DNA from: Sediminibacterium sp.
GTDB taxonomy: Bacteria; Bacteroidota; Bacteroidia; Chitinophagales; Chitinophagaceae
Length of the DNA: 11,012 nucleotides
Assembly: GCA_028288645.1 (NCBI GenBank)
Contig: JAQBNJ010000547.1
Location: forward strand, 1 to 11,012
Direction: 5' to 3'
Part shown: positions 961 to 11,012 of the stretch, piece by piece
Layout of the letters: each line of letters starts with the position of its first letter
How positions within the stretch are numbered: position 1 is the first letter of the stretch
The notes under the pieces: generated by a model
What the model was told of the DNA's origin: nothing
What the model saw: the letters and a program-made list of their open reading frames with translations, nothing else
The model's database searches: none
Position numbers and translations under genes: made by a program

Positions 961-1006
961 ACTAAAAAAGGTCCTGCAAATTTTCATTTACCGGACCTTC
1001 TTTAGT
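961..1006 (-). terminator. Intrinsic terminator of the PUL operon
   Basis: Read on the minus strand, the core stem AAGGTCC/GGACCTT (993-999 with 968-974) continues through one G-A mismatch into GTAAAT/ATTTGC closed by a GAAA tetraloop. The 3' arm runs straight into six T residues (969-964). ACTAAA/TTTAGT (1001-1006 with 961-966) can lengthen the base of the stem past one mismatch. It lies about 260 bases after the GH30 stop; without the inserted element at 1104-1259 and one target copy it would be about 90 bases away. On the + strand no T-run follows the stem, so it acts mainly on minus-strand transcription. The stretch 1007-1093 holds no gene; its only visible structure is a 6-bp inverted repeat, TTGATA/TATCAA, at 1045-1064. 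Confidence 0.8.
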
Positions 1007-1093: not shown

Positions 1094-1103
1094 CACCAAT
1101 CAC
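1094..1103. repeat. Left direct repeat (target-site duplication) of the MITE-like element
   Basis: CACCAATCAC here is identical to the ten bases at 1260-1269. The match ends exactly at ten bases on both sides, and the two copies directly abut the outer ends of the inverted repeats of the 156-base element, as expected for a target duplication made on insertion. Confidence 0.7.
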
Positions 1104-1259
1104 TACAACTGTTCGGAAGATTAAATTACTACACACGCGGGGCTGGAAGCCCCGGAGAGAAAGGATAGGGTTTTATTCTTACCCGCGCTCTAAAGAGCGT
1201 GGCAAGAATAGCCGTGTAACGAATTGCACAAACTGTTCCTCATCTTCCGGACACCTGTA
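1104..1259. mobile_element. 156-base MITE-like non-autonomous element
   Basis: The ends form imperfect terminal inverted repeats of 18 bases: TACAACTGTTCGGAAGAT at 1104-1121, and TACAGGTGTCCGGAAGAT read inward on the minus strand from 1259 to 1242. Fifteen of 18 positions match. The interior is non-coding and holds two GC-rich hairpins, plus AACTGTTC near both ends as a direct repeat (1107-1114, 1231-1238). Perfect 10-base direct repeats flank the element. Small size, no ORF, terminal inverted repeats and a target duplication fit a miniature inverted-repeat transposable element moved by a transposase encoded elsewhere. Several IS families make duplications of about this length (IS4 and ISAs1 groups, for example), so the parent family is not assigned. 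It sits directly downstream of the GH30 reading frame and becomes part of that mRNA's 3' untranslated region. Confidence 0.72.
1130..1218. other. Two nested hairpins in the core of the MITE-like element
   Basis: The first hairpin is CGGGGCT/AGCCCCG (1138-1144 with 1148-1154, loop GGA). The second is longer: CGCTC/GAGCG with loop TAAA (1186-1190 with 1195-1199). It extends through a G-T wobble and two C-G pairs, then past a small internal loop into TATTCTT/AAGAATA (1174-1180 with 1204-1210). TACAC at 1130-1134 and GTGTA at 1214-1218 can close both into a cloverleaf-like fold inside the outer inverted repeats. The fold is possible as RNA from either strand. Confidence 0.6.
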
Positions 1260-1269
1260 CACCAATCAC
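1260..1269. repeat. Right direct repeat, containing the GH30 stop codon
   Basis: This is the second copy of CACCAATCAC. On the minus strand it contains the TGA stop (1268-1266) of the GH30 gene. The insertion therefore hit the very end of the gene and, by duplicating the target, left the reading frame and its stop intact. Confidence 0.7.
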
Positions 1270-2747
1270 CAGGTAAACGTTCCTACAGACCCCGCTTCCA
1301 ATGAAATGGCAATCCATCTGCCGTTGTATTTGATATTAAACAGTTGGGAACTGCTGCCGTCGTTTTCTACGATCAGCACTTTTTTCCCTTCAGGTGTTTT
1401 AAAGGCTACATTGTTAAGATTGCCGGCTGTGGTACTGGAGATCCGTATGGAACCCTGCGGTACAAATTTAGCTGCATGTGCAATAATGTAATAACCCACA
1501 TTTCGCGTAAAATTACTATTGTTATCTATCGTTATAGCGCCCTTACAGGCATCGCATCCACCGGCTGTATGCGGACCAAATGCGGAATTATTGGCAAGGT
1601 TCCATTCAAGCGCATTGCGGCTCCAGTTACGCATGGAACCAATGACCACATTTTTCAAGTGCCATTTCAGATCGCCTCCGAAATTGCCGGTTGAAGATGT
1701 CCATTGCTCGGTAAAATATAATGCCTTATCAGGATGTGCGTTGCGTACAGTAGATAATGCGCTGATATCTCCCGCATATAAATGAAACGCTGAGCCATTG
1801 ATAAATGTCTTGGCAGCAGCATCGTCTAAAATAGAAATGGGATACTCAGGCTTATCACAGTTATGATCATAGATGATGATCTTGGTTGTGATATTCGCAG
1901 CCTGGAAGGCAGGGCCCAGGTTATTTTTAATAAAGTCGGCCTGTTGCGGAGCTAACATCAACATGCTTGGATTATTGCCGGGATGCAGCGGTTCGTTTTG
2001 CGGGGTGATCGCATCAATGGTAATTCCCTGCGCCTTCATCAGCTGAATATATTTTACAAAGTATTGTGCATAGGCTGCATAATATTTTGTTTGCAAACTG
2101 CCACCTGTAAAACTATTATTGTCTTTCATCCATACCGGCGGTGACCATGGACTACCCAGGATCTTTATATTGGGATTGATAGCGAGTATCTCTTTCAACA
2201 AAGGAATAACGTTAGTCATGTCAGGAGCAAGACTGAAATTAGCCAGGGCAACATCTGTTTGACCCGCCGGCATATCATCATAGGTAAATGGAGAAGCATT
2301 CAAGTCAGAGGCGCCGATACTGATACGCAGATAACTTACACCGATGGAACTTGCGGATGATCCGAATAATTCCTGCAGCAGTTCCTGTTTTTTTGAAGCG
2401 ATCAACGAATTGATCACTTCTGCACTGCCACCGGTAAGTGTATATCCAAAACCATCAACCGATTGGAAAGAGCTGTTCTCATCTACGTCGATATTGAGAT
2501 ATTGATTTACCGGCGTACCAAATGCCAGTACAGTGCTTTGTTTCTGAAGCTTTACGGTTTCATCAGATTTGGTGAGCCAGAAATCCATTTCATTGTTTAC
2601 TACCGGCGGCGGAACAGGGGGTGTTGGCGTTGGAGTGGGATCGACGCTCTTGCTTGAACAATTGATCAATAAGAAAAAAAACAGCGGGAGTACGCCGGTT
2701 ATTATCAACCTTTTACTGCTGGTCACAAGGTTATTATTTGTTTTCAT
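1266..2747 (-). CDS. GH30 family glycoside hydrolase lipoprotein, likely beta-1,6-glucanase
   Basis: Predicted surface or periplasmic endo-hydrolase of about 493 residues. From the ATG at 2747 it has a basic N-region, a hydrophobic segment and a lipobox LINC with Cys30, then a Pro/Thr-rich linker at about 37-48. A longer start at 2768 adds seven residues only three bases after the upstream stop; 2747 gives a more normal signal peptide. The GH30 TIM barrel begins near FQSVDGFGYTLTGG, includes SPWSPPVWM, the acid/base Glu252 in TPQNEP and the nucleophile Glu347 in YFTEQW, and ends in the usual beta-sandwich domain (VLIVENDG, GTFTW). Length and motifs fit complete GH30 enzymes. Known GH30 subfamily 3 proteins of Bacteroidota and fungi cut beta-1,6-glucan; the assignment here is inferred from family and from the GH16 neighbours. 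Beta-glucosidase or another GH30 specificity remains possible. It is the last gene of the operon, and a mobile element abuts its stop. Confidence 0.9.
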   Translation of the reverse strand: MKTNNNLVTSSKRLIITGVLPLFFFLLINCSSKSVDPTPTPTPPVPPPVVNNEMDFWLTKSDETVKLQKQSTVLAFGTPVNQYLNIDVDENSSFQSVDGFGYTLTGGSAEVINSLIASKKQELLQELFGSSASSIGVSYLRISIGASDLNASPFTYDDMPAGQTDVALANFSLAPDMTNVIPLLKEILAINPNIKILGSPWSPPVWMKDNNSFTGGSLQTKYYAAYAQYFVKYIQLMKAQGITIDAITPQNEPLHPGNNPSMLMLAPQQADFIKNNLGPAFQAANITTKIIIYDHNCDKPEYPISILDDAAAKTFINGSAFHLYAGDISALSTVRNAHPDKALYFTEQWTSSTGNFGGDLKWHLKNVVIGSMRNWSRNALEWNLANNSAFGPHTAGGCDACKGAITIDNNSNFTRNVGYYIIAHAAKFVPQGSIRISSTTAGNLNNVAFKTPEGKKVLIVENDGSSSQLFNIKYNGRWIAISLEAGSVGTFTW

Positions 2748-2771
2748 AGATATTGGTGTTAAAAACATGCA

Positions 2772-3575
2772 TCATTTTACCGGCGTGTACACGCGAACAT
2801 AATCTACTTCAAGCGTAGCCGGAAAAACGGTTGTATCAATTCCCTGTTTCCCGCCGAGGTTACCTCCTACTGCTATGTTGATCAGTAAATGGAACGGGGA
2901 ATCAAAAGGCCATTCTGCCGTGGTCTTGTGTTCGTTCTCAATATGATTGTACAAAACATTATCCAGCAAAAAATCCATCCGCTCGGGTGTCCATTCAAGT
3001 GTGTACAGGTGATAGCTTGTATATGGATTTGCGATGAATGCTTTCTTGCCTTTTTGTGTTCCTTTAATATGGTTGTACGATTTGGTGTGTATGGTTCCAA
3101 ACACCGAATCTTTTTCAAAGCCTACATGTTCCATAATGTCTATTTCACCGCTTTCGGGCCAGCCTACGGTATTGATATTATTTCCAAGCATCCAAATTGC
3201 GGGCCAGATACCGCGGCCGGCAGGAAGTTTTGCACGGATTTCTATTTTACCGTAAGTAAAATCTGCTTTACCTTTTGTAAGCAGGCGCGCTGATGTATAC
3301 TCGCGGTTAGCCATTTTTTCACGGATCGCTTTTACTTTCAGTGAGCCGTTGCTTACTTCTGCGTTGGCCAGGGATGCTTTGGTGTAATATTGCAATTCGT
3401 TATTACCCCAGCCATGTCCCCCGATATCATACCCCCATTTGGTAGAATCGGGCAAGCCTTCATAATTAAATTCTTCGCTCCAGGAAAGTTTCCAGTCAAC
3501 CTTACCTGATTTGTTTTGTGATGTTGCACAGGAAACAAAACAGAGTGTGATAAACAATAGGCAAACAAAACGCAT
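2772..3575 (-). CDS. GH16 endo-beta-1,3-glucanase (laminarinase-like) lipoprotein
   Basis: Predicted endo-acting retaining beta-glucanase of about 267 residues, nearly all catalytic domain. From the ATG at 3575 the N-terminus MRFVCLLFITLCFVSC is a textbook lipoprotein signal (Cys16). A longer start at 3602 overlaps the stop of the upstream gene as ATGA and would allow translational coupling, but gives an odd N-terminus; the choice is open. The beta-jelly roll shows WSEEFN, GWGNNELQYYT (55-65), RAKLPAGRGIWPAIWMLG, and the catalytic motif GEIDIMEH with nucleophile Glu144, Asp146 and acid/base Glu149. It ends VDYVRVY. The extra Met in E-I-D-I-M-E and the GWGNNELQYYT loop are typical of laminarinases rather than lichenases, agarases or carrageenases. 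It is clearly paralogous to the GH16 domain encoded just upstream, and probably has a different preferred cut site or chain length. Confidence 0.92.
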   Translation of the reverse strand: MRFVCLLFITLCFVSCATSQNKSGKVDWKLSWSEEFNYEGLPDSTKWGYDIGGHGWGNNELQYYTKASLANAEVSNGSLKVKAIREKMANREYTSARLLTKGKADFTYGKIEIRAKLPAGRGIWPAIWMLGNNINTVGWPESGEIDIMEHVGFEKDSVFGTIHTKSYNHIKGTQKGKKAFIANPYTSYHLYTLEWTPERMDFLLDNVLYNHIENEHKTTAEWPFDSPFHLLINIAVGGNLGGKQGIDTTVFPATLEVDYVRVYTPVK

Positions 3576-3598
3576 AGAATAATCAGTTAGGTGAAGTA

Positions 3599-4801
3599 TC
3601 ATTGAAAAACACGCACATAATCCACAAACATTCTTTGCGGAAATGGTGTGCCTGAATCCGGCGGGCCGGGCCAGAGACCGCCTACTGCAACATTGAAAAT
3701 AAAAAACTGCGATGCATTAAAAGGATAATTTGCGGCACCTGCATCGGCTTTGGTCATTGTAAGAAGCAGCTGGTCATCTACCAGCCATTTGATCATATCC
3801 TGCGACCAGATAATACTGAATACATGGAATTTTTGTGAAAAATCACCCGATGGCAAATTATACTCGGTGCCCTTTGACGTTTCGTTACCTGCTACAGCTT
3901 TCCAGTGCATGGTGCCGTAAACACGGCCCGGGTAAGTGCCGATCAATTCCATGATATCCATTTCACCGCAGGCGGGCCAGGGTACGGTATTGATGTTAGA
4001 ACCCAGCATCCAGAGTGCGGGCCAGATACCTTTGCTTACCGGCAGTTTTGCCCTGATATCGATCCTGCCGAATGTGAAAGATTTTTTATTCTGCGTGGTC
4101 ATACGCGTAGAGGAATAATTGAACCCGCTAATCGCTTCTTTGCGGGCTTCTATTACCAGGTTACCATTGGATGCAAAAACATTTTTCGTGCTGTTGGTAT
4201 AATATTCAAGTTCGCTGTTTCCCCATCCGTTGTTGTTACCGGTTTCCATGTTCCATATAGCAGGATCCGGTGCTGTACCCGAGAATTCATCGGCCCAAGC
4301 CAATGTATAACCGGGGTAAGTAAGCGGTGTGCTGTATCCTGTATTGTCAGTTGTAAGGCTTGTTCCATTCTCTGTAATAATGGTTCCTTTTGCAGAGAGT
4401 ACCCCCAATGCGCAGGACTTTGCATTACTTAACTGAACAGTAAACTCAAGGTTGTTCTGTCGCGTATCCGCAGCATCACCTTTGATGGGCACATCTACCT
4501 GCGCCTGTGATTGGTTGGCAGCAATGGTAACTGTTCCGGATGCAGCTGTATAATCTTTTGGCGCGGTTGCGGTTCCATCGGTCACAGTATAATCTACCGA
4601 GACAGGAACAGATGTTGTTTTATCCAGTGTAACATTAAAATGCATCACGCCTGCGCTGGTAGTTCTTACCTGTGAAGCGTCTTCCATTTTAATCACGGGT
4701 ACAACAACCGCAACAGGTGTATCACCTTTCTTTCCACAAGAGAATAACAAGGTGCTTATTGTTATTAACCCGATAAGGAACTTGAATCTTTGTTTCAGCA
4801 T
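3599..4801 (-). CDS. Calx-beta plus GH16 beta-glucanase lipoprotein
   Basis: Predicted surface endo-beta-glucanase of 400 residues. The ATG at 4801 gives MLKQRFKFLIGLITISTLLFSC, a clean lipoprotein signal with Cys22. The frame is open to a GTG at 4825, but that start adds eight charged residues and is less likely. Residues about 37-145 form a Calx-beta type sandwich (DYTVTDGTATAPKDY, SGTVTIAANQ, DTRQNNLEFTVQL), a module that usually binds calcium or acts as a spacer. GH16 follows from about 164: WADEFSG, GWGNSELEYYT (192-202), RAKLPVSKGIWPALWMLG, then GEMDIMEL with Glu280, Asp282 and Glu285 in catalytic places, ending VDYVRVF. All key residues are present. It is the first enzyme gene after a 140-base gap with a stem-loop, so its expression may be set apart from the import genes. 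Confidence 0.91.
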   Translation of the reverse strand: MLKQRFKFLIGLITISTLLFSCGKKGDTPVAVVVPVIKMEDASQVRTTSAGVMHFNVTLDKTTSVPVSVDYTVTDGTATAPKDYTAASGTVTIAANQSQAQVDVPIKGDAADTRQNNLEFTVQLSNAKSCALGVLSAKGTIITENGTSLTTDNTGYSTPLTYPGYTLAWADEFSGTAPDPAIWNMETGNNNGWGNSELEYYTNSTKNVFASNGNLVIEARKEAISGFNYSSTRMTTQNKKSFTFGRIDIRAKLPVSKGIWPALWMLGSNINTVPWPACGEMDIMELIGTYPGRVYGTMHWKAVAGNETSKGTEYNLPSGDFSQKFHVFSIIWSQDMIKWLVDDQLLLTMTKADAGAANYPFNASQFFIFNVAVGGLWPGPPDSGTPFPQRMFVDYVRVFQ

Positions 4802-4826
4802 ATTGATCGTTTTATCACCCGCCACT

Positions 4827-4855
4827 GTAAAATATCATGTAACAGAACAGGCAAA
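4827..4855 (-). promoter_or_regulatory. Weak candidate internal promoter before the enzyme genes
   Basis: On the minus strand TTTG (4855-4852) is followed after 17 bases by TATTTTAC (4834-4827), which matches six of eight positions of the Bacteroidota -7 box TAnnTTTG. The spacing is slightly short of the usual 19 or so, and the leader to the ATG at 4801 would be short. It directly follows the stem-loop at 4864-4894. The match is weak and could be chance. Confidence 0.2.
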
Positions 4856-4863
4856 CCGAAAGT

Positions 4864-4894
4864 AAAGCACAAGGCATTTCTGCCCTGTGCCTTT
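4864..4894 (-). terminator. Terminator-like stem-loop inside the operon (possible attenuator)
   Basis: On the minus strand GCACAGGGCA (4890-4881) pairs with TGCCTTGTGC (4876-4867) over ten bases, with one G-U wobble and a GAAA tetraloop. AAA/TTT outside a one-base bulge lengthens it. The 3' arm is followed by TTTACTTT, an imperfect T-tract. It lies in the only large gap of the operon (4802-4941), just after the last glycan-binding gene and before the first enzyme gene. It could partly end transcription or protect the 3' end of a processed upstream mRNA. Confidence 0.55.
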
Positions 4895-4941
4895 GGTCAT
4901 CATTGCTTGCCGTATGAAATTCTTTTTAAGTTACCTGTCAA

Positions 4942-5871
4942 TTAGTTCTTTAATTTCAGATACCATGCGTTGCCTGTTTCTGTACCTTGTACCCGCAGGT
5001 ACAGGTTAGTAGCAGAAATAGACATGATCTCGTATTCCTTCAATTGTGCACCATAGCCGATATAAGTATTGGCACCGCCTAACAGGATGCCTGTTTTAGT
5101 AGAAGGAGCTGATGCTGCAATACCCGATGAAGAAGGAACAAAAGAGAAAGTTGAAGTTCCTCCTGAATAAGGATAACATGCTTCTGCACCTGAACCCGGG
5201 ATACCGGGAAGCCCGCCAGCCAATGAACCTGTTTTGGTGAATGCACCATCAGGACTTGCCACAGTAAGGGTATAGGTACCGTCTGCTAATTTGGTAAACG
5301 TGAATGATGCTGAATAGAAACAGTTACAGCAACCTGCTTTTTCATTGGGTACAGCAGCATACCATTCAGGGGTAACTGATGTAGTGCTCCATGGGCCTAC
5401 ACCAAAATGACCAGCTGCATCTTTATCCACTTTCCAGGTTTTGGAACCTGTTCCTGTAAGATTGGTAACGATCGCTGCAGCGGGTGTGAAATCACTTCTT
5501 ACCTGGATGTCTTTGGTAACCGTGGTAGCCGCGGCTCCGGGGCCATACGCTACTGCGGTTATGCGGTATGTATTCAGGCCGATAGATGTGTATTTTTTAG
5601 TAGCTGTACCATCCGGCAAAAACTCGAGGTTAATTCCATCGGCGGCGTTGTAATCTATCTTATAGGAAAGAACATTTTTACCGGTAAGTGAGATCTTCAC
5701 ATCTCCTGAGCCATCGCCATTGGGATGCGTTGCGTCTACGCCCACAATGGTTGTGTTGATAGCAACCTCAGAAGGTGCAACCAGGTTTCCCATGGTGAAT
5801 TCTTTTTTCTCACAACTGCTGAAAAGCATCAATGCGATGATAAAGGAATAGTATTTTATATAACGTATCAT
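4942..5871 (-). CDS. Surface glycan-binding lipoprotein, SusE/F position, PKD-like plus C-terminal domain
   Basis: Lipoprotein of 309 residues with signal MIRYIKYYSFIIALMLFSSC (Cys20) followed by EKK. Residues about 32-125 look like one PKD/Ig-like sandwich (VKISLTGKNVLSYKIDY, YRITAVAYGPG). The second half starts at TGSKTWKVDKDAAGHFGVGP (141-160), then PEWYAAVPNEKAG, a Cys cluster (Cys181, Cys182, Cys184, plus Cys232), and ends with NAWYLKLKN. I recognise this second half as a domain recurring in Bacteroidota PUL proteins, but I cannot name a characterised member. No catalytic motif is seen. Its place after susC/susD and another PKD protein, and its lipid anchor, indicate an outer-surface glycan-binding protein that helps capture the glucan; that role is inferred from context. 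The preceding gene ends ten bases upstream. Confidence 0.78.
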   Translation of the reverse strand: MIRYIKYYSFIIALMLFSSCEKKEFTMGNLVAPSEVAINTTIVGVDATHPNGDGSGDVKISLTGKNVLSYKIDYNAADGINLEFLPDGTATKKYTSIGLNTYRITAVAYGPGAAATTVTKDIQVRSDFTPAAAIVTNLTGTGSKTWKVDKDAAGHFGVGPWSTTSVTPEWYAAVPNEKAGCCNCFYSASFTFTKLADGTYTLTVASPDGAFTKTGSLAGGLPGIPGSGAEACYPYSGGTSTFSFVPSSSGIAASAPSTKTGILLGGANTYIGYGAQLKEYEIMSISATNLYLRVQGTETGNAWYLKLKN

Positions 5872-5881
5872 GGTTGTGTTT

Positions 5882-6979
5882 TTAATTGGTTAATCTGAAG
5901 TTGTCAACATAAATAACAGCGCCTGCGCCGTCGGTACCATCATTAAAGCGCAATACCAACTGGCTGAATTTAGCAGTGGCGGGTACGGCTGAAAGGGTAC
6001 CGAAATCAAACACCAGTTCTTCCCATACGCCTGAAGTTGTGAACGCGGTTCGTAATACGGCAATGCCATTCGCTATTGTACCCGCTTCCAGTTCTATATT
6101 CAGTTTTTTGCCGATGAGTAAAGGATCGGGATTGTAAGCGAGTACTCTTATTTTTTTACCCAATGCCATATCTATCTGGATATTCAAAGGGCTGTATGTT
6201 CCGCTCCAGCTTTCAAAACCACGTGTGAATTTGCCCACTTTTGCACTTGTATTCAGTCCTGATGCATTCGGATTGGTCACTGTTGCAAACTGTTGCCCGC
6301 CACCGAATGTGCCGAAGAAATATTCAATGGTAGACAGGTCAAAAGTGATCGGTAAACCAAATGGATCGAATATAGTTACCGATGTGGTTTTTTCTGTCTT
6401 GGCAACACCACCGCTCAACGCCACCACTTTTACAGTATAGGTACCTGCGGCTGCATAAGTGTGCGACACTTCTGCGCCTGTTGCAAGTGGTGTACCTACT
6501 TCATTGGCAACATCACCATAATAAACAAGGTAAGAAGCCGCATACAATGCTGTGGCTTTTACTTTTAAAAGAAGCGCTGTCTGTGATGTTGTGATCGCCA
6601 CATTCTCAGGTGCACGATACGTTACTGTTAAAGGATAGGTAGCCGTTGATTCTACTCCGGAAATACTTTTGGAGACAATGGTAACCGTATAGGTTCCTTC
6701 GGGATAGGCATGTGTTGTATTATTTCCCGGCATAACAACGGCTGATGCACCAGTGCCGGTACCATGGCCGTAACTAACCGTGTAAGAAGCAGCGCCCTGG
6801 CCGGTTGGCGTGATCACCACTTTACCGGAGTTATCATTGCTTATATCGAATATTTTACTGTTATTGGCTGTTGAGGCGGAACTCAAAAAAGACAGGTCAG
6901 AACTGATTCCATCTTTTTTCTGGCAACCTGTTGCTGCCAGTAAAACCGCCAGGCCGAATATTATGGTTACTTTCTTCAT
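5882..6979 (-). CDS. Surface glycan-binding lipoprotein with two PKD-like modules and a C-terminal jelly-roll-like domain
   Basis: Lipoprotein of 365 residues with signal MKKVTIIFGLAVLLAATGC (Cys19) and QKKDG after it. Two PKD-like repeats are visible: about 50-120 (ASYTVSYGHGTG, HAYPEGTYTVTIV) and about 127-203 (ASYLVYYGD, HTYAAAGTYTVKVV). Each carries the (H)xY...GTYTV signature of PKD folds. The C-terminal part, about 207-365, includes GFESWSGTYSPLNIQID, KIRVLAYNPDP, WEELVFDFG and VIYVDNFRL, a pattern typical of carbohydrate-binding beta-jelly rolls. No catalytic residues can be assigned. It follows the susD-like gene by 14 bases, the position of SusE-type proteins, so the inferred job is binding the polysaccharide at the cell surface, with the PKD modules as rigid spacers and the distal domain as the likely binding site. 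Confidence 0.82.
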   Translation of the reverse strand: MKKVTIIFGLAVLLAATGCQKKDGISSDLSFLSSASTANNSKIFDISNDNSGKVVITPTGQGAASYTVSYGHGTGTGASAVVMPGNNTTHAYPEGTYTVTIVSKSISGVESTATYPLTVTYRAPENVAITTSQTALLLKVKATALYAASYLVYYGDVANEVGTPLATGAEVSHTYAAAGTYTVKVVALSGGVAKTEKTTSVTIFDPFGLPITFDLSTIEYFFGTFGGGQQFATVTNPNASGLNTSAKVGKFTRGFESWSGTYSPLNIQIDMALGKKIRVLAYNPDPLLIGKKLNIELEAGTIANGIAVLRTAFTTSGVWEELVFDFGTLSAVPATAKFSQLVLRFNDGTDGAGAVIYVDNFRLTN

Positions 6980-6993
6980 AAAAGCTGGTTTGT

Positions 6994-8511
6994 TTAATTG
7001 TAGTTAGGATTCTGAACCAATTTAGTAGCCTGTAATTCTCTCGCAGGGATCGGGAATATTTCGTTCTTGCCGGCTTTAAAACCTCTTGAAGAAAGTTTTG
7101 AAGCTGCATCTCCCCAACGTACAAGGTCAAAGAAACGATGGCCCTCTCCTGCCAGTTCCAACCGGCGTTCTGTTTTGATCGCAGCAAGAGAAACCGGAAC
7201 GGAAGCGAGTCCGACACGTGCGCGAACTGCATCAAGCAAGGCCTGTGCCCTTGCGCCGGTAGCGCCAAGCGCTTCTGCTTCCATCAGGTAACAATCAGCC
7301 AAACGGATGATATAATCGTTTTGCTGGAAATTCAGTTCCAGTGTACCGCCACCTGTACGTTGATCGGATTTTCTCGGCATAAACTTGTTGATGAAATATC
7401 CTGTGTTCTGATATCCTTCAATATAAGTTGCCTGGCCAGCTGTTGCATAGGCTTTAATATCCAATACGGTTGCGCCGAAACGTGGATCCGGTTTAAGAGC
7501 ATCATACAGATCCTGCGTGATAGGATTAAAGCTCCATCCTCCGGTATAAATGTCCGGGCCGGTGTAAGTAGCTGTTTTTGCAAAGCTTCTTGGACCCACC
7601 ATCTGGTTTACAGAATTTCCTTCATCAGCGCTGCTTCCCCAGAATCCCCAATCTGCATTTGATTGGTTGGTATGCACACATTCCAATATTGATTCTGAAT
7701 TGAATTTATTGGTGAACACCCACAGGTCAGCAAAATTGGTCAGCAATTTATTGCCATAAGTGTTTGCCTGGCCCGGTGTTGCACCGTTTACTATCGCCAG
7801 TTGTGCCGCTGCCTGTGATCCTTTATTATCGTACAGGTATACTTTACCAAGCATTGCCTGTGCTGCAACTTTTGTTAACCGCCCTGCTTCTGTTCCCAAT
7901 ACAAGAGAGCTGGGAAGATCAGGTATCGCTTCTGTAAGATCCTTTTCTACCTGTGTGTAAATCGCTGCCGGTGTTGCCTGTGTTACCTCGTAGATACCAT
8001 TGGTTGTTAAAGGTTCCAGCAAAAGCGGGACGTTTTTGAACATTCTTACGAGGTTAAAATAATAGATCCCGCGAAGTGCTTTGGCTTCCGCTACGAACCG
8101 TGCTTTTTCTGCAGCGCCCATTGTTGTGGCAGGTAATCTTGAAAGCAGCGCATTCACTCTGAAAACACCCTGGTAGTGATCATTCCAGTAACTGCCCGGC
8201 ATGATGTTGGCATTGATGGTGAAGTTGGAGAAACCCTGGATACCTGCTCCATCCGTAGCGCCACCACCACCGGCAACATGATCATCTGAACCCGCGTTCA
8301 TAAAGGTGATCATGTTCTCAAAACCACCTGCATTCTTACGCAATATATCATAGGCGCCAACCAGTCCGGTATATGCCTGTTCCCTGTTAGCGTAATAATT
8401 CGCTGTAAGGAACTGTCCCTGCGGCTCTATCGTGATAAAATCTTTTTTGCAGGATGCCAACGCCATTAAAGAGGCGGAGAGCAGTGCAAATTTCATCTTT
8501 ATGCTTTTCAT
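6994..8511 (-). CDS. SusD/RagB-like glycan-binding lipoprotein
   Basis: Protein of 505 residues that caps the SusC-like transporter at the outer membrane and delivers oligosaccharides to it. The N-terminus MKSIKMKFALLSASLMALASC gives a lipidated Cys21 followed by KKDFI; Met6 is an alternative start with the same signal. The N-terminal SusD-like region shows YWNDHYQGVFRVN (108-120) and RGIYYFNLVRMFKNVPLL (147-164). The C-terminal RagB/SusD region shows ERRLELAGEGHRFFDLVRWG (448-467) and IFPIPARE (485-492), hallmark motifs of the family. Length is normal and nothing is missing. It starts 18 bases after the susC-like stop and must be co-transcribed. Ligand identity cannot be read from the sequence; the GH16/GH30 genes downstream point to a beta-glucan. 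Confidence 0.97.
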   Translation of the reverse strand: MKSIKMKFALLSASLMALASCKKDFITIEPQGQFLTANYYANREQAYTGLVGAYDILRKNAGGFENMITFMNAGSDDHVAGGGGATDGAGIQGFSNFTINANIMPGSYWNDHYQGVFRVNALLSRLPATTMGAAEKARFVAEAKALRGIYYFNLVRMFKNVPLLLEPLTTNGIYEVTQATPAAIYTQVEKDLTEAIPDLPSSLVLGTEAGRLTKVAAQAMLGKVYLYDNKGSQAAAQLAIVNGATPGQANTYGNKLLTNFADLWVFTNKFNSESILECVHTNQSNADWGFWGSSADEGNSVNQMVGPRSFAKTATYTGPDIYTGGWSFNPITQDLYDALKPDPRFGATVLDIKAYATAGQATYIEGYQNTGYFINKFMPRKSDQRTGGGTLELNFQQNDYIIRLADCYLMEAEALGATGARAQALLDAVRARVGLASVPVSLAAIKTERRLELAGEGHRFFDLVRWGDAASKLSSRGFKAGKNEIFPIPARELQATKLVQNPNYN

Positions 8512-8529
8512 ATAAAATAGTTTGATTAA

Positions 8530-11012
8530 TTAGAATTGAATTTGAAGACCACCTAAAATTGTGCGTGCCTGTGGATACTGACCTTTGTCAATACCAAATA
8601 CACCACCCCCTACTTCAGGATCGTATCCTGTATAGTTAGTAAGTGTGAACAGGTTCTCAGCCGTTACGTATACGCGTAATTTTGAGATACCGCTTTTGCC
8701 AAACAGTTTATTTGGTAAAGTATATCCCAGCTGGAATACTTTCAATCTCAGGTAATCACCTTTTTCAAGATAGAAATCAGACATCCATGCAAAGTTGTTG
8801 TTAGGATCAGTAGTGGTTAACCTCGGATAATCAGTAGAAGTTCCTTCGGCTGTCCAGCGTCCAAGTGCCTTGGTAGAGTAGTTAGAGTTAAGGATATCCA
8901 GTCTGCGTAATCCCTGGAAGATCTTGTTTCCTGCAACACCCTGTGCAAACACCATCATATCAAATCCTTTGTATTCAAGGTTGATCGTTAAACCGAATGT
9001 GAGCTTAGGAATATTGCTTCCGAGGAATGTTTTATCAAGGTTATCGCTTGTGATAGATCCATCGCCATTAAGATCGGCCCAGATAAAATCACCCGGACGT
9101 GCATTCGGCTGAATAAGGCCGCCGGCTTTATTTTTATAGTTATTGATCTCTGCCTGGTTCTGGAATATACCCAGTCTCTGGTATCCGAAAAAGCTGTTAT
9201 AGGATTGTCCAACCTGGATTCTTGTAACATTACCCATTGACTGGAAACCTGCACTACCCCCTATGAAATTCGTATCGGCAGCTACTTTGGTTACCGTGTT
9301 TTTCAGGTAAGAGACATTCGCATTTACAGAAAGGTTAAAATCACCCATTCTTTTGCGGTAGCCCAATTCTACCTCAACGCCGGTATTTTTCATATTGGCT
9401 ACATTGCCTACAGGATTGGCACCTGCACCAACATAACCCGGGATCACTATGTCCCTGAGAATGCCTTTGGTTTCTTTATTATACCAGTTTACCGTAAGGT
9501 TAAGGGAGTTGAAGAGTTGTGCATCAAAACCGATATCAGTAGTTGCTGTTTCTTCCCAATGCAGATCGGGGTTATCCAATGTAAGTGGCGCATAACCTGT
9601 TGTTACGGCTCCTGAAGAACCAATGGCGTAATTGTATCCGCCTACAACAGTGGAAAGATATCCGAAATCCCTGATCGCATCATTACCAACCACACCATAA
9701 CCACCTCTGAGTTTAAAGCTATTAACCACTTTGTTCTTTGGCCAGAAACTTTCCCTGTCTGCGTTCCATCCAATAGAAGTGGAAGGGAAGTAACCGTATT
9801 TATTGTTTAAACCAAAACGGGTACTGCCATCACGACGCACGATACTCGTTAATATGTATTTATCCTGGTAGCTATAATTAAGACGGCCAAACAGGGAAAT
9901 GATCTTGTGTTGTATCATGTCACTTGCATAACCATCGCGGTTCGCCAAAGGCACATCAAACCTGAAAGAGGCATCCTGGTAACTGGTGATCGGCAGATTA
10001 AAGAAGGTCATACCTACACTTCCGCCGATATTTTCTACATAAGTACCCTGGCCGGCCAATACCGTGAAGCTATGGTCACCGATCTTTTTGCTGTAAGTGA
10101 TCGTATTTTCCACGTTCCAGTTAAATACCCTGTTCTCACCTTTTGAATACCTGTTGGTAAGATTTGTATTGGTTGCATTCAGGTAGAAAACCGGTGTGAA
10201 ACCGATATTGCCCCAATATGCTTTTTTAACGCCTACAGTGCTTCTTATCTTAAGTCCCTCGATTGGTGCAATTTCTAAATAAGCATTTCCAACGATATCG
10301 TCTGACCAGTTATAACCGCCTAAACGCGGCTGGATATATGCAAGCGGGTTGGTCATCTCCTGTCCTACAATAGAAGAGATCCCGTAAGGGTTTCCTGCCG
10401 CATCCCTGATGACAGGGTTATTAAGATAAGGTTGTGAAGGTGAATTCGCGACCAGCGGATCAGTGATAATAAGCTTTGTGATCGGATCGAGATTGATGGC
10501 CGAACTCAACGGGCCGCCAAACTCGCTGTTTGTATTTCCGAGGCCGGTACTTCTCTGGTATGTATAACCCAGCGTTTGTCCGAACGTAACATAGTTCCCG
10601 ATCTTATGTGTTGAATTCAAACGGAAATTCTTTTTTGAATATTTGGAAATATCCGATGATACGAGTCCGGTTTGATCCTGGATACCGGCTGACAAATAGA
10701 AAGTCGATCTTTCATTACCACCATTCACGCTCACTTCGTGCAGGTACCGTGGGGCACTGTTGTTAAAGATGGCTTTCTGCCAGTCTGTACCAACGCCCAA
10801 AGACGCTACATCGTTGTATAACACTGCACCACCACCTGCTACAGAACGTTCATTCATTAGCGTAGCATACTGTGATGCGTTGAGGAGGTCAAGTATTTTG
10901 GCCGGTGCCGAGGTTCCGTAGAAACCATTATAGCTCACAGTTAATTTTCCTGGTTTACCTTTTTTGGTAGTTACCAGGATTACCCCTGTAGCCGCCCGCG
11001 TACCATAGATAG
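8530..11012 (-). CDS. SusC/RagA-like TonB-dependent outer-membrane transporter (5' end outside window)
   Basis: The last 826 residues of a SusC-type transporter are visible; signal peptide, carboxypeptidase-regulatory-like domain, TonB box and the first part of the plug lie beyond the right edge. The frame is open to the edge, so the in-frame GTG at 10938 is an internal Val, not a start. The visible part begins with the classic plug motif IYGTRAATGVILVTTKKG, then the barrel: NPDLHWEETATTDIGFD, GNVANMKNTGVEVELGYRKR, RPGDFIWADLNGDGSIT, the C-terminal LRVYVTAENLF and NYTGYDPEVGG, and a terminal Phe (GLQIQF) as needed for barrel assembly. It imports oligosaccharides into the periplasm with TonB energy, paired with the susD-like product encoded 18 bases downstream. 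The operon promoter and any regulator must lie upstream, outside the window. Confidence 0.97.
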   Translation of the reverse strand, partial: IYGTRAATGVILVTTKKGKPGKLTVSYNGFYGTSAPAKILDLLNASQYATLMNERSVAGGGAVLYNDVASLGVGTDWQKAIFNNSAPRYLHEVSVNGGNERSTFYLSAGIQDQTGLVSSDISKYSKKNFRLNSTHKIGNYVTFGQTLGYTYQRSTGLGNTNSEFGGPLSSAINLDPITKLIITDPLVANSPSQPYLNNPVIRDAAGNPYGISSIVGQEMTNPLAYIQPRLGGYNWSDDIVGNAYLEIAPIEGLKIRSTVGVKKAYWGNIGFTPVFYLNATNTNLTNRYSKGENRVFNWNVENTITYSKKIGDHSFTVLAGQGTYVENIGGSVGMTFFNLPITSYQDASFRFDVPLANRDGYASDMIQHKIISLFGRLNYSYQDKYILTSIVRRDGSTRFGLNNKYGYFPSTSIGWNADRESFWPKNKVVNSFKLRGGYGVVGNDAIRDFGYLSTVVGGYNYAIGSSGAVTTGYAPLTLDNPDLHWEETATTDIGFDAQLFNSLNLTVNWYNKETKGILRDIVIPGYVGAGANPVGNVANMKNTGVEVELGYRKRMGDFNLSVNANVSYLKNTVTKVAADTNFIGGSAGFQSMGNVTRIQVGQSYNSFFGYQRLGIFQNQAEINNYKNKAGGLIQPNARPGDFIWADLNGDGSITSDNLDKTFLGSNIPKLTFGLTINLEYKGFDMMVFAQGVAGNKIFQGLRRLDILNSNYSTKALGRWTAEGTSTDYPRLTTTDPNNNFAWMSDFYLEKGDYLRLKVFQLGYTLPNKLFGKSGISKLRVYVTAENLFTLTNYTGYDPEVGGGVFGIDKGQYPQARTILGGLQIQF

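Follow-up and report, generated by a model that had tools for sequence, protein, structure and literature searches.

The locus and the element beside the GH30 stop

We have analysed a stretch of 11,012 nucleotides from Sediminibacterium sp. (contig JAQBNJ010000547.1 of assembly GCA_028288645.1), referred to here as the window. A row of minus-strand genes from 1266 to 11010 codes for a TonB-dependent receptor, a SusD protein, a PKD-domain protein, a protein without a Pfam match, two GH16 proteins and a GH30 glycosidase, and looks like a beta-glucan utilisation locus. The features around the 3' end of the GH30 gene are the following.

961 to 1006, minus strand: hairpin behind the GH30 gene, probably a transcription terminator (-29 kcal/mol, z -7.7)
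1094 to 1103: CACCAATCAC, the left-hand repeat of the 10-bp target duplication, 10/10 identical to the right-hand one
1104 to 1259: 156-bp non-autonomous element (probable MITE), with further copies elsewhere in the genome
1104 to 1121, plus strand: left terminal inverted repeat, 15/18 against the right end, 3 mismatches in 16 against the end shared by the family of elements
1138 to 1154, minus strand: hairpin H2 of the interior, which reads CGGGGCTTCCAGCCCCG on this strand
1183 to 1202, minus strand: hairpin H1 of the interior, which reads CCACGCTCTTTAGAGCGCGG on this strand and is extended to 1175-1209 by flanking pairs
1242 to 1259, minus strand: right terminal inverted repeat, 2 mismatches in 16 against the family end
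1260 to 1269: right copy of the duplication, CACCAATCAC, with the GH30 stop (1266-1268) inside
1266 to 2768, minus strand: GH30 glycosidase gene (PF02055, 140 bits; PF17189, 49 bits), the last of the row before the insertion

The termini of the element read TACA...TGTA. The initial annotation of this DNA had drawn the element, its inverted ends and the perfect 10-base repeat enclosing the GH30 stop exactly to the base. We found 13 exact 10-bp direct-repeat pairs in the window with starts 47-499 bp apart, and just one of them, the element's own, encloses inverted ends that match at 12/18 or better (here 15/18). Such a combination appeared once in total among 300 surrogate sequences made from the window with a first-order Markov model. 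No ORF of at least 80 aa overlaps 1104-1259. The element folds strongly (z -6.6 on the plus strand, -3.2 on the minus strand), and an Rfam scan of 600-1500 gave seven matches, every one of them under its gathering score, so that no known RNA family is recognised in this region.

The coding sequence of the GH30 gene is unaltered by the insertion, and its 3' region has gained 166 bp with strong hairpins. From the stop to the hairpin at 961-1006 there are now 260 nt; without the element and one copy of the repeat there would be 94, close to the 90 or so bases given by the initial annotation. The same source had called this hairpin the operon terminator. The strength of the fold agrees with that name, but the hairpin is not listed by a consensus terminator scan of 600-1400.

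Relatives of the GH30 gene were found in 91 of the 147 genomes of the genus (its own genome counted in), the closest in the genus search being that of genome G049 (78% identity), and the C-terminus is conserved (GSVGTFTW-stop in the window, GSVGTFIW-stop in G049). We fetched the 29 best-scoring loci and inspected the 3' end of the gene in 25 of them, the longest-ORF rule having chosen another gene in L171, L190, L192 and L198. By eye, none of the 25 carries the element at this place. A single end-like site (up to 3 mismatches) was present in one of the 29 loci (L176). The initial annotation had pointed out that copies lacking flanking duplications and always found at the 3' end of this gene would speak against mobility; no complete element lies anywhere in these 29 loci. 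Its absence from the relatives agrees with what would be a late insertion. The flanks of these genes do not align (for the 3' flank of the G049 gene, as judged by eye), and hence a true empty site is not among them.

Copies in the host genome

The host assembly comprises 2.80 Mb (57% complete), with the window as its contig C541. A DNA search of it (E up to 1e-3) gave four further matches, at C79, C160 and C415 (two). The core of the end, TGTTCNGAAGA, has 22 matches in the genome, whereas its reversed control has 3. Inspection by eye shows 13 of these matches to be element ends (C62, C106, C228, C402, three in C408, two in C415, two in C459, C535 and C541), and the remaining nine look unrelated. 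The third C408 end falls outside the complete element of that contig. Five copies with both ends could be described as follows.

C541 (window): 156 bp, duplication 10/10
C228: 247 bp, duplication 10/10
C408: 249 bp, duplication 7/10 in fixed register, 9/10 shifted
C415: 178 bp, duplication 2/10 in fixed register, 7/8 shifted
C106: 95 bp, duplication 1/10 in fixed register, 8/9 shifted

C459 and C535 also have both ends, with no clear duplication by eye. The copies occupy unrelated places in the genome. Those in C228, C408, C459 and C535 have a common interior, other than that of the window (by eye), and make up a second element type of ca. 250 bp with the same ends and AGCTCCGTAGGAGCGACCTGT-like inverted repeats inside. 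The left flanks of C62, C408 and C535 contain the REP sequence GCCGTTGTTGGTC.

The same ends in other Bacteroidota

The genome of the same genus that we take to be Sediminibacterium ginsengisoli DSM 22335 (NZ_FUWH) has 26 matches to the core end vs 5 for the control. About ten of its ends are CACAGGTGTTCGGAAGA or differ from it by one base, and one 272-bp copy has identical ends and a duplication of 9/10. At up to one mismatch the CACAGGTGTTCGGAAGA end occurs in 28 of 394 genomes of the bacterial family, although many of the one-mismatch matches, those without a REP flank, look like chance. The whole element of the window was not found elsewhere in the genus: two of the 146 other genomes matched, and by the H1 part alone (with up to five candidates scored per genome).

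A scan of species genomes for the exact 18-base end gave 82 loci, against about 7 that we estimate for random sequence of equal size. By a count made by eye, 81 carry Bacteroidota titles (48 of them Mucilaginibacter) and the other is a Bathyarchaeota MAG. We examined 80 of these loci. A second end lies within 2.6 kb in 46 of them, by a loose criterion of up to 4 mismatches over both ends together, and 34 have none. One of the 46 is an insertion sequence (L201) and the other 45 are further elements, 35 of them 160-220 bp long and 20 of them flanked by exact 10-bp duplications. At one locus, a Mucilaginibacter MAG (L224, 5017-6944), a gene for an AraC-like regulator and another small ORF (both named by eye) lie between two MITEs of opposite orientation. 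We considered a composite transposon with the AraC-like gene as cargo and discarded it, as the ends are those of two separate MITEs; the 10-bp site is the same for both, and each MITE has it duplicated separately.

A related insertion sequence with an IS4-family transposase

Two loci have insertion sequences between perfect family ends, each at the start of a contig: one of 1286 bp with a single 390-aa ORF (L129, genome G260), and one of 1336 bp with a single 396-aa ORF (L130, genome G309). Both ORFs match PF01609 and exceed the cut-off of 115 of the IS4-family transposase model NF033592 (146.7 and 149.5 bits, respectively), and by eye both contain the YREK motif, as YRSRWQIEVFFKFLK and YKRRWDIEVFFKFIK. 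A PDB sequence search with the L129 ORF gave no match. The ends of the window element differ from those of L129 and L130 by 2-3 mismatches in 16, that is, they are similar and not identical. IS copies with such an ORF and these ends are present in more than one genus, and a Daejeonella MAG holds a decayed copy of 906 bp with perfect ends, in which 201 aa of an IS4-type transposase are left (75.4 bits, below the cut-off). Eight partial matches to the L129 transposase were found in S. ginsengisoli, all at contig ends, as expected because a repeated IS breaks the assembly. When the L130 protein was compared with eight named genomes (E 1e-20), S. ginsengisoli alone gave matches.

The interior hairpin doublet

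The interior of the window element is an ordered doublet of two hairpins (H1-spacer-H2), an aspect absent from the initial annotation, which did not describe it as part of another mobile system. A scan of 1.36 Mb of sequence, part of it chosen for resemblance to the window element, gave 14 distinct instances of the ordered pattern, in four genomes of the genus. Five are in the host genome (the window, C79, C415 and twice in C160), six in G149, two in G064 and one in G077. The instance in C79 stands without IS4-type ends, and in C160 the arrangement is H1-H2-H2'-H1'. In G149 (L298) two doublets flank a gene for a 148-aa Y1_Tnp protein (685-1131), and a third follows ca. 380 bp beyond, their H1 hairpins being at 638, 1271 and 1512. 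The protein matches PF01797 (81.5 bits) and the IS200/IS605 model NF033573 (60.8, cut-off 55). With the RAYT model NF047646 it reaches 23.4 bits, under the cut-off of 80, and we therefore call it Y1/IS200-like and not RAYT. As the doublets occur both around a Y1_Tnp gene and alone, we believe that they belong with a Y1/HUH-type system.

The doublet of G077 is preceded by an IS4-type end with one mismatch, which begins 66 bases ahead of it, and a second end at up to 4 mismatches was not found in the stretch read. The host genome has Y1_Tnp genes at four places over the cut-off and at one below it. None of the palindromes listed around these five loci is H1 or H2, so the source gene of the cargo was not found there. 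One of these loci (L045, contig C497) contains five CAACGGATT..AATCCGTTG palindromes, which form a REP-like family of their own. Beside H1 in G149 (TTGCCACGCTCTTTATAC-like, L298, 540-640) and in G077 (GGCAAGAAGGGCGC-like, L122, 1715-1870) there are short arrays of half-hairpins repeated in tandem, which look like a one-sided multiplication of the end hairpin.

Origin of the element

We consider it highly probable (about 0.87) that the element is a MITE with IS4-type ends, mobilised in trans by an IS4-type transposase and carrying a Y1-type hairpin cargo inside. The initial annotation had already proposed a MITE and had suggested where to look for support, which has come from three of these places: other host copies with different flanks (C228, C408, C415, C106 and others), elements with the same ends in S. 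ginsengisoli and other Bacteroidota, chiefly Mucilaginibacter, and insertion sequences of 1.29-1.34 kb with matching ends and an IS4-family transposase of 390-396 aa. The ends, the duplication, the other copies and the IS are observed; that this IS lineage mobilised the window element in trans is what we infer. In such a process an IS4-type DDE transposase, supplied in trans, would recognise the CACAGGTGTTCGGAAGA-like ends of the element and join it, at the GH30 stop, to strands nicked with a 10-bp stagger, and repair of the gaps would copy the 10 bp. A duplication made in this way would explain that the stop survived and that the 3' untranslated region grew by 166 bp. The doublet may have been captured in an IS4-type shell or inserted into it, which would put two mobility systems, one nested in the other, within 156 bp.

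There are other possible explanations. One, to which we give a small share of the probability, is that the MITE depends on another transposase lineage with these ends, the IS4 link being indirect. This would fit the search of the 57%-complete host genome, in which no relative of the L129 transposase was found, and the result for six Mucilaginibacter genomes with such ends, in which the IS4 model found nothing over the cut-off and one decayed match (101.6 bits). Against it, IS copies with an IS4-type ORF carry these ends in more than one genus, the decayed Daejeonella copy carries them too, and duplications of ca. 10 bp with 5'-CA ends are those given for the IS4 family in PMC2266710.

Somewhat less probable still is that the moving unit is the Y1/HUH-type doublet, in the manner of a REPIN, with the IS4-like shell as an older or incidental neighbour. 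The free doublet in C79, the arrangement in C160 and the doublets around the Y1_Tnp gene of G149 are what would be expected of such a unit. However, the perfect 10-bp duplication of the window lies exactly outside the IS4-type ends, and Y1/HUH elements are not known to make such a target duplication. Besides, C228, C408, C459 and C535 have the same ends with no doublet in the loci scanned. That the stretch is a host structure in the 3' UTR of GH30, regulatory or stabilising the mRNA, and not mobile, is very improbable: its strong folds on both strands and its place behind the last gene of the row would suit this role, but the 29 loci of GH30 relatives lack a complete element, copies are found at unrelated places and a perfect duplication brackets this one.

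Target sites

In S. ginsengisoli all eight listed ends that adjoin IS transposase sequence fit 11-12 of the 12 fixed positions of GTCNNNNGAC-CAACAA, and all of those in G090 (4/4) and G260 (3/3) fit 12 of 12, the presence of transposase sequence having been judged partly by eye. One more G260 end (L132), without IS transposase sequence, fits 9 of the 12 positions. Four G309 ends have the same palindrome with its middle one base shorter, three of them being a bare end at the edge of a contig. From this fit we conclude that these IS copies are inserted centrally in a REP palindrome, TTGTTG-GTCGCCTGAC-CAACAA, where they abut its 10-bp centre. The MITE ends of S. ginsengisoli go from 11 positions of the 12 (L090) and 10 (L099) through 8 and 10 (L093) and 8 (L050, L089) to the low values of 6 and 6 (L085), 5 (L094, L098) and 2 (L097).

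We measured 53 copies: the window, four others of the host, three of S. ginsengisoli and 45 from elsewhere. The IS locus L201 (which has no left flank) and the loci L279 and L280, which lay outside the scan for partner ends, were never part of the sets scored for dyads. The 10-bp duplication is exact in 22 of the 53 and at least 8/10 in 36. Symmetry about the middle of the site, at 6 or more of 9 pairs, was present in 27 of these 36 well-duplicated copies and in 31 of all 53, vs 1.6% of 4800 random sites by the same fixed-centre measure. This measure was chosen, on 48 copies, after the result of a movable-centre measure had been seen (51 copies, mean 0.60 vs 0.42 at random sites). That set of 48 did not include C415 and C106 of the host, L098 of S. 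ginsengisoli, and L215 and L267 from elsewhere, which were restored in the 53; one of these five scores 9 and the others 2-3. The arms of the dyads are of at least three kinds, TTGTTG-GTG..CAC-CAACAA, GTCGCTC-GGCT..AGCC-GAGCGAC and CTTTTT-GT..AC-AAAAAG. The sites are not independent of each other, because many are copies of related REPs, and L245 and L246 have one and the same site sequence.

The site of the window itself has 3 of the 9 symmetric pairs, and with the movable centre it scores 0.54, a value equalled or exceeded by 19% of random sites. With such low symmetry, a preference for dyads does not explain the insertion at the GH30 stop. A wider proposal, that what the IS4-type transposase recognises is the centre of any inverted repeat, as a cruciform or a symmetric target and not as one particular sequence, and that its MITEs take up and spread HUH/Y1 hairpin doublets, is speculative and in our view rather unlikely as a whole. 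If true, two unrelated transposition systems would feed each other, one making palindromes and the other landing in them and carrying them.

Relation to known systems

Like members of the IS4 family as described in PMC2266710, the related IS has a single transposase ORF and the Y(2)R(3)E(6)K motif. Unlike them, the window element has no ORF. Insertion of an IS4-family element in REPs is already in print. The copies of ISRm22 of Sinorhizobium meliloti lie in REP palindromes (nine in the text and 10/10 in the table of PMC1525189), as do those of the related IS described here, although the phylum is different and the window's own copy is outside a REP. A MITE holding a REP is also in print: QMITE2 of Coxiella burnetii, found mainly in 3' untranslated regions, the REP of which is given as a target of IS1111, with no IS4 link mentioned in the extract of that paper (PMC10969869). 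REPINs and RAYTs are likewise hairpin doublets near a Y1 transposase gene and also dispersed from it (PMC3116915). In our case, H1 and H2 differ in sequence, the shell is of IS4 type and the Y1 protein is under the RAYT cut-off.

Among the matches listed in searches of open-licence PMC papers, none deals with this family, its range in Bacteroidota or the combination of IS4 and Y1 parts, and no paper was found there on a MITE together with an insertion sequence in Mucilaginibacter or on a nonautonomous IS4-family MITE in bacteria. What had been an anonymous intergenic repeat is tied by these results to an IS4-type IS/MITE family of the Bacteroidota, with a case in which the target duplication spares the stop codon of a gene. 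The set of insertion sites, with its 22 of 53 exact duplications, its many dyads and at least three arm sequences, may serve to tell whether structure or sequence leads the choice of target by IS4-type transposases.
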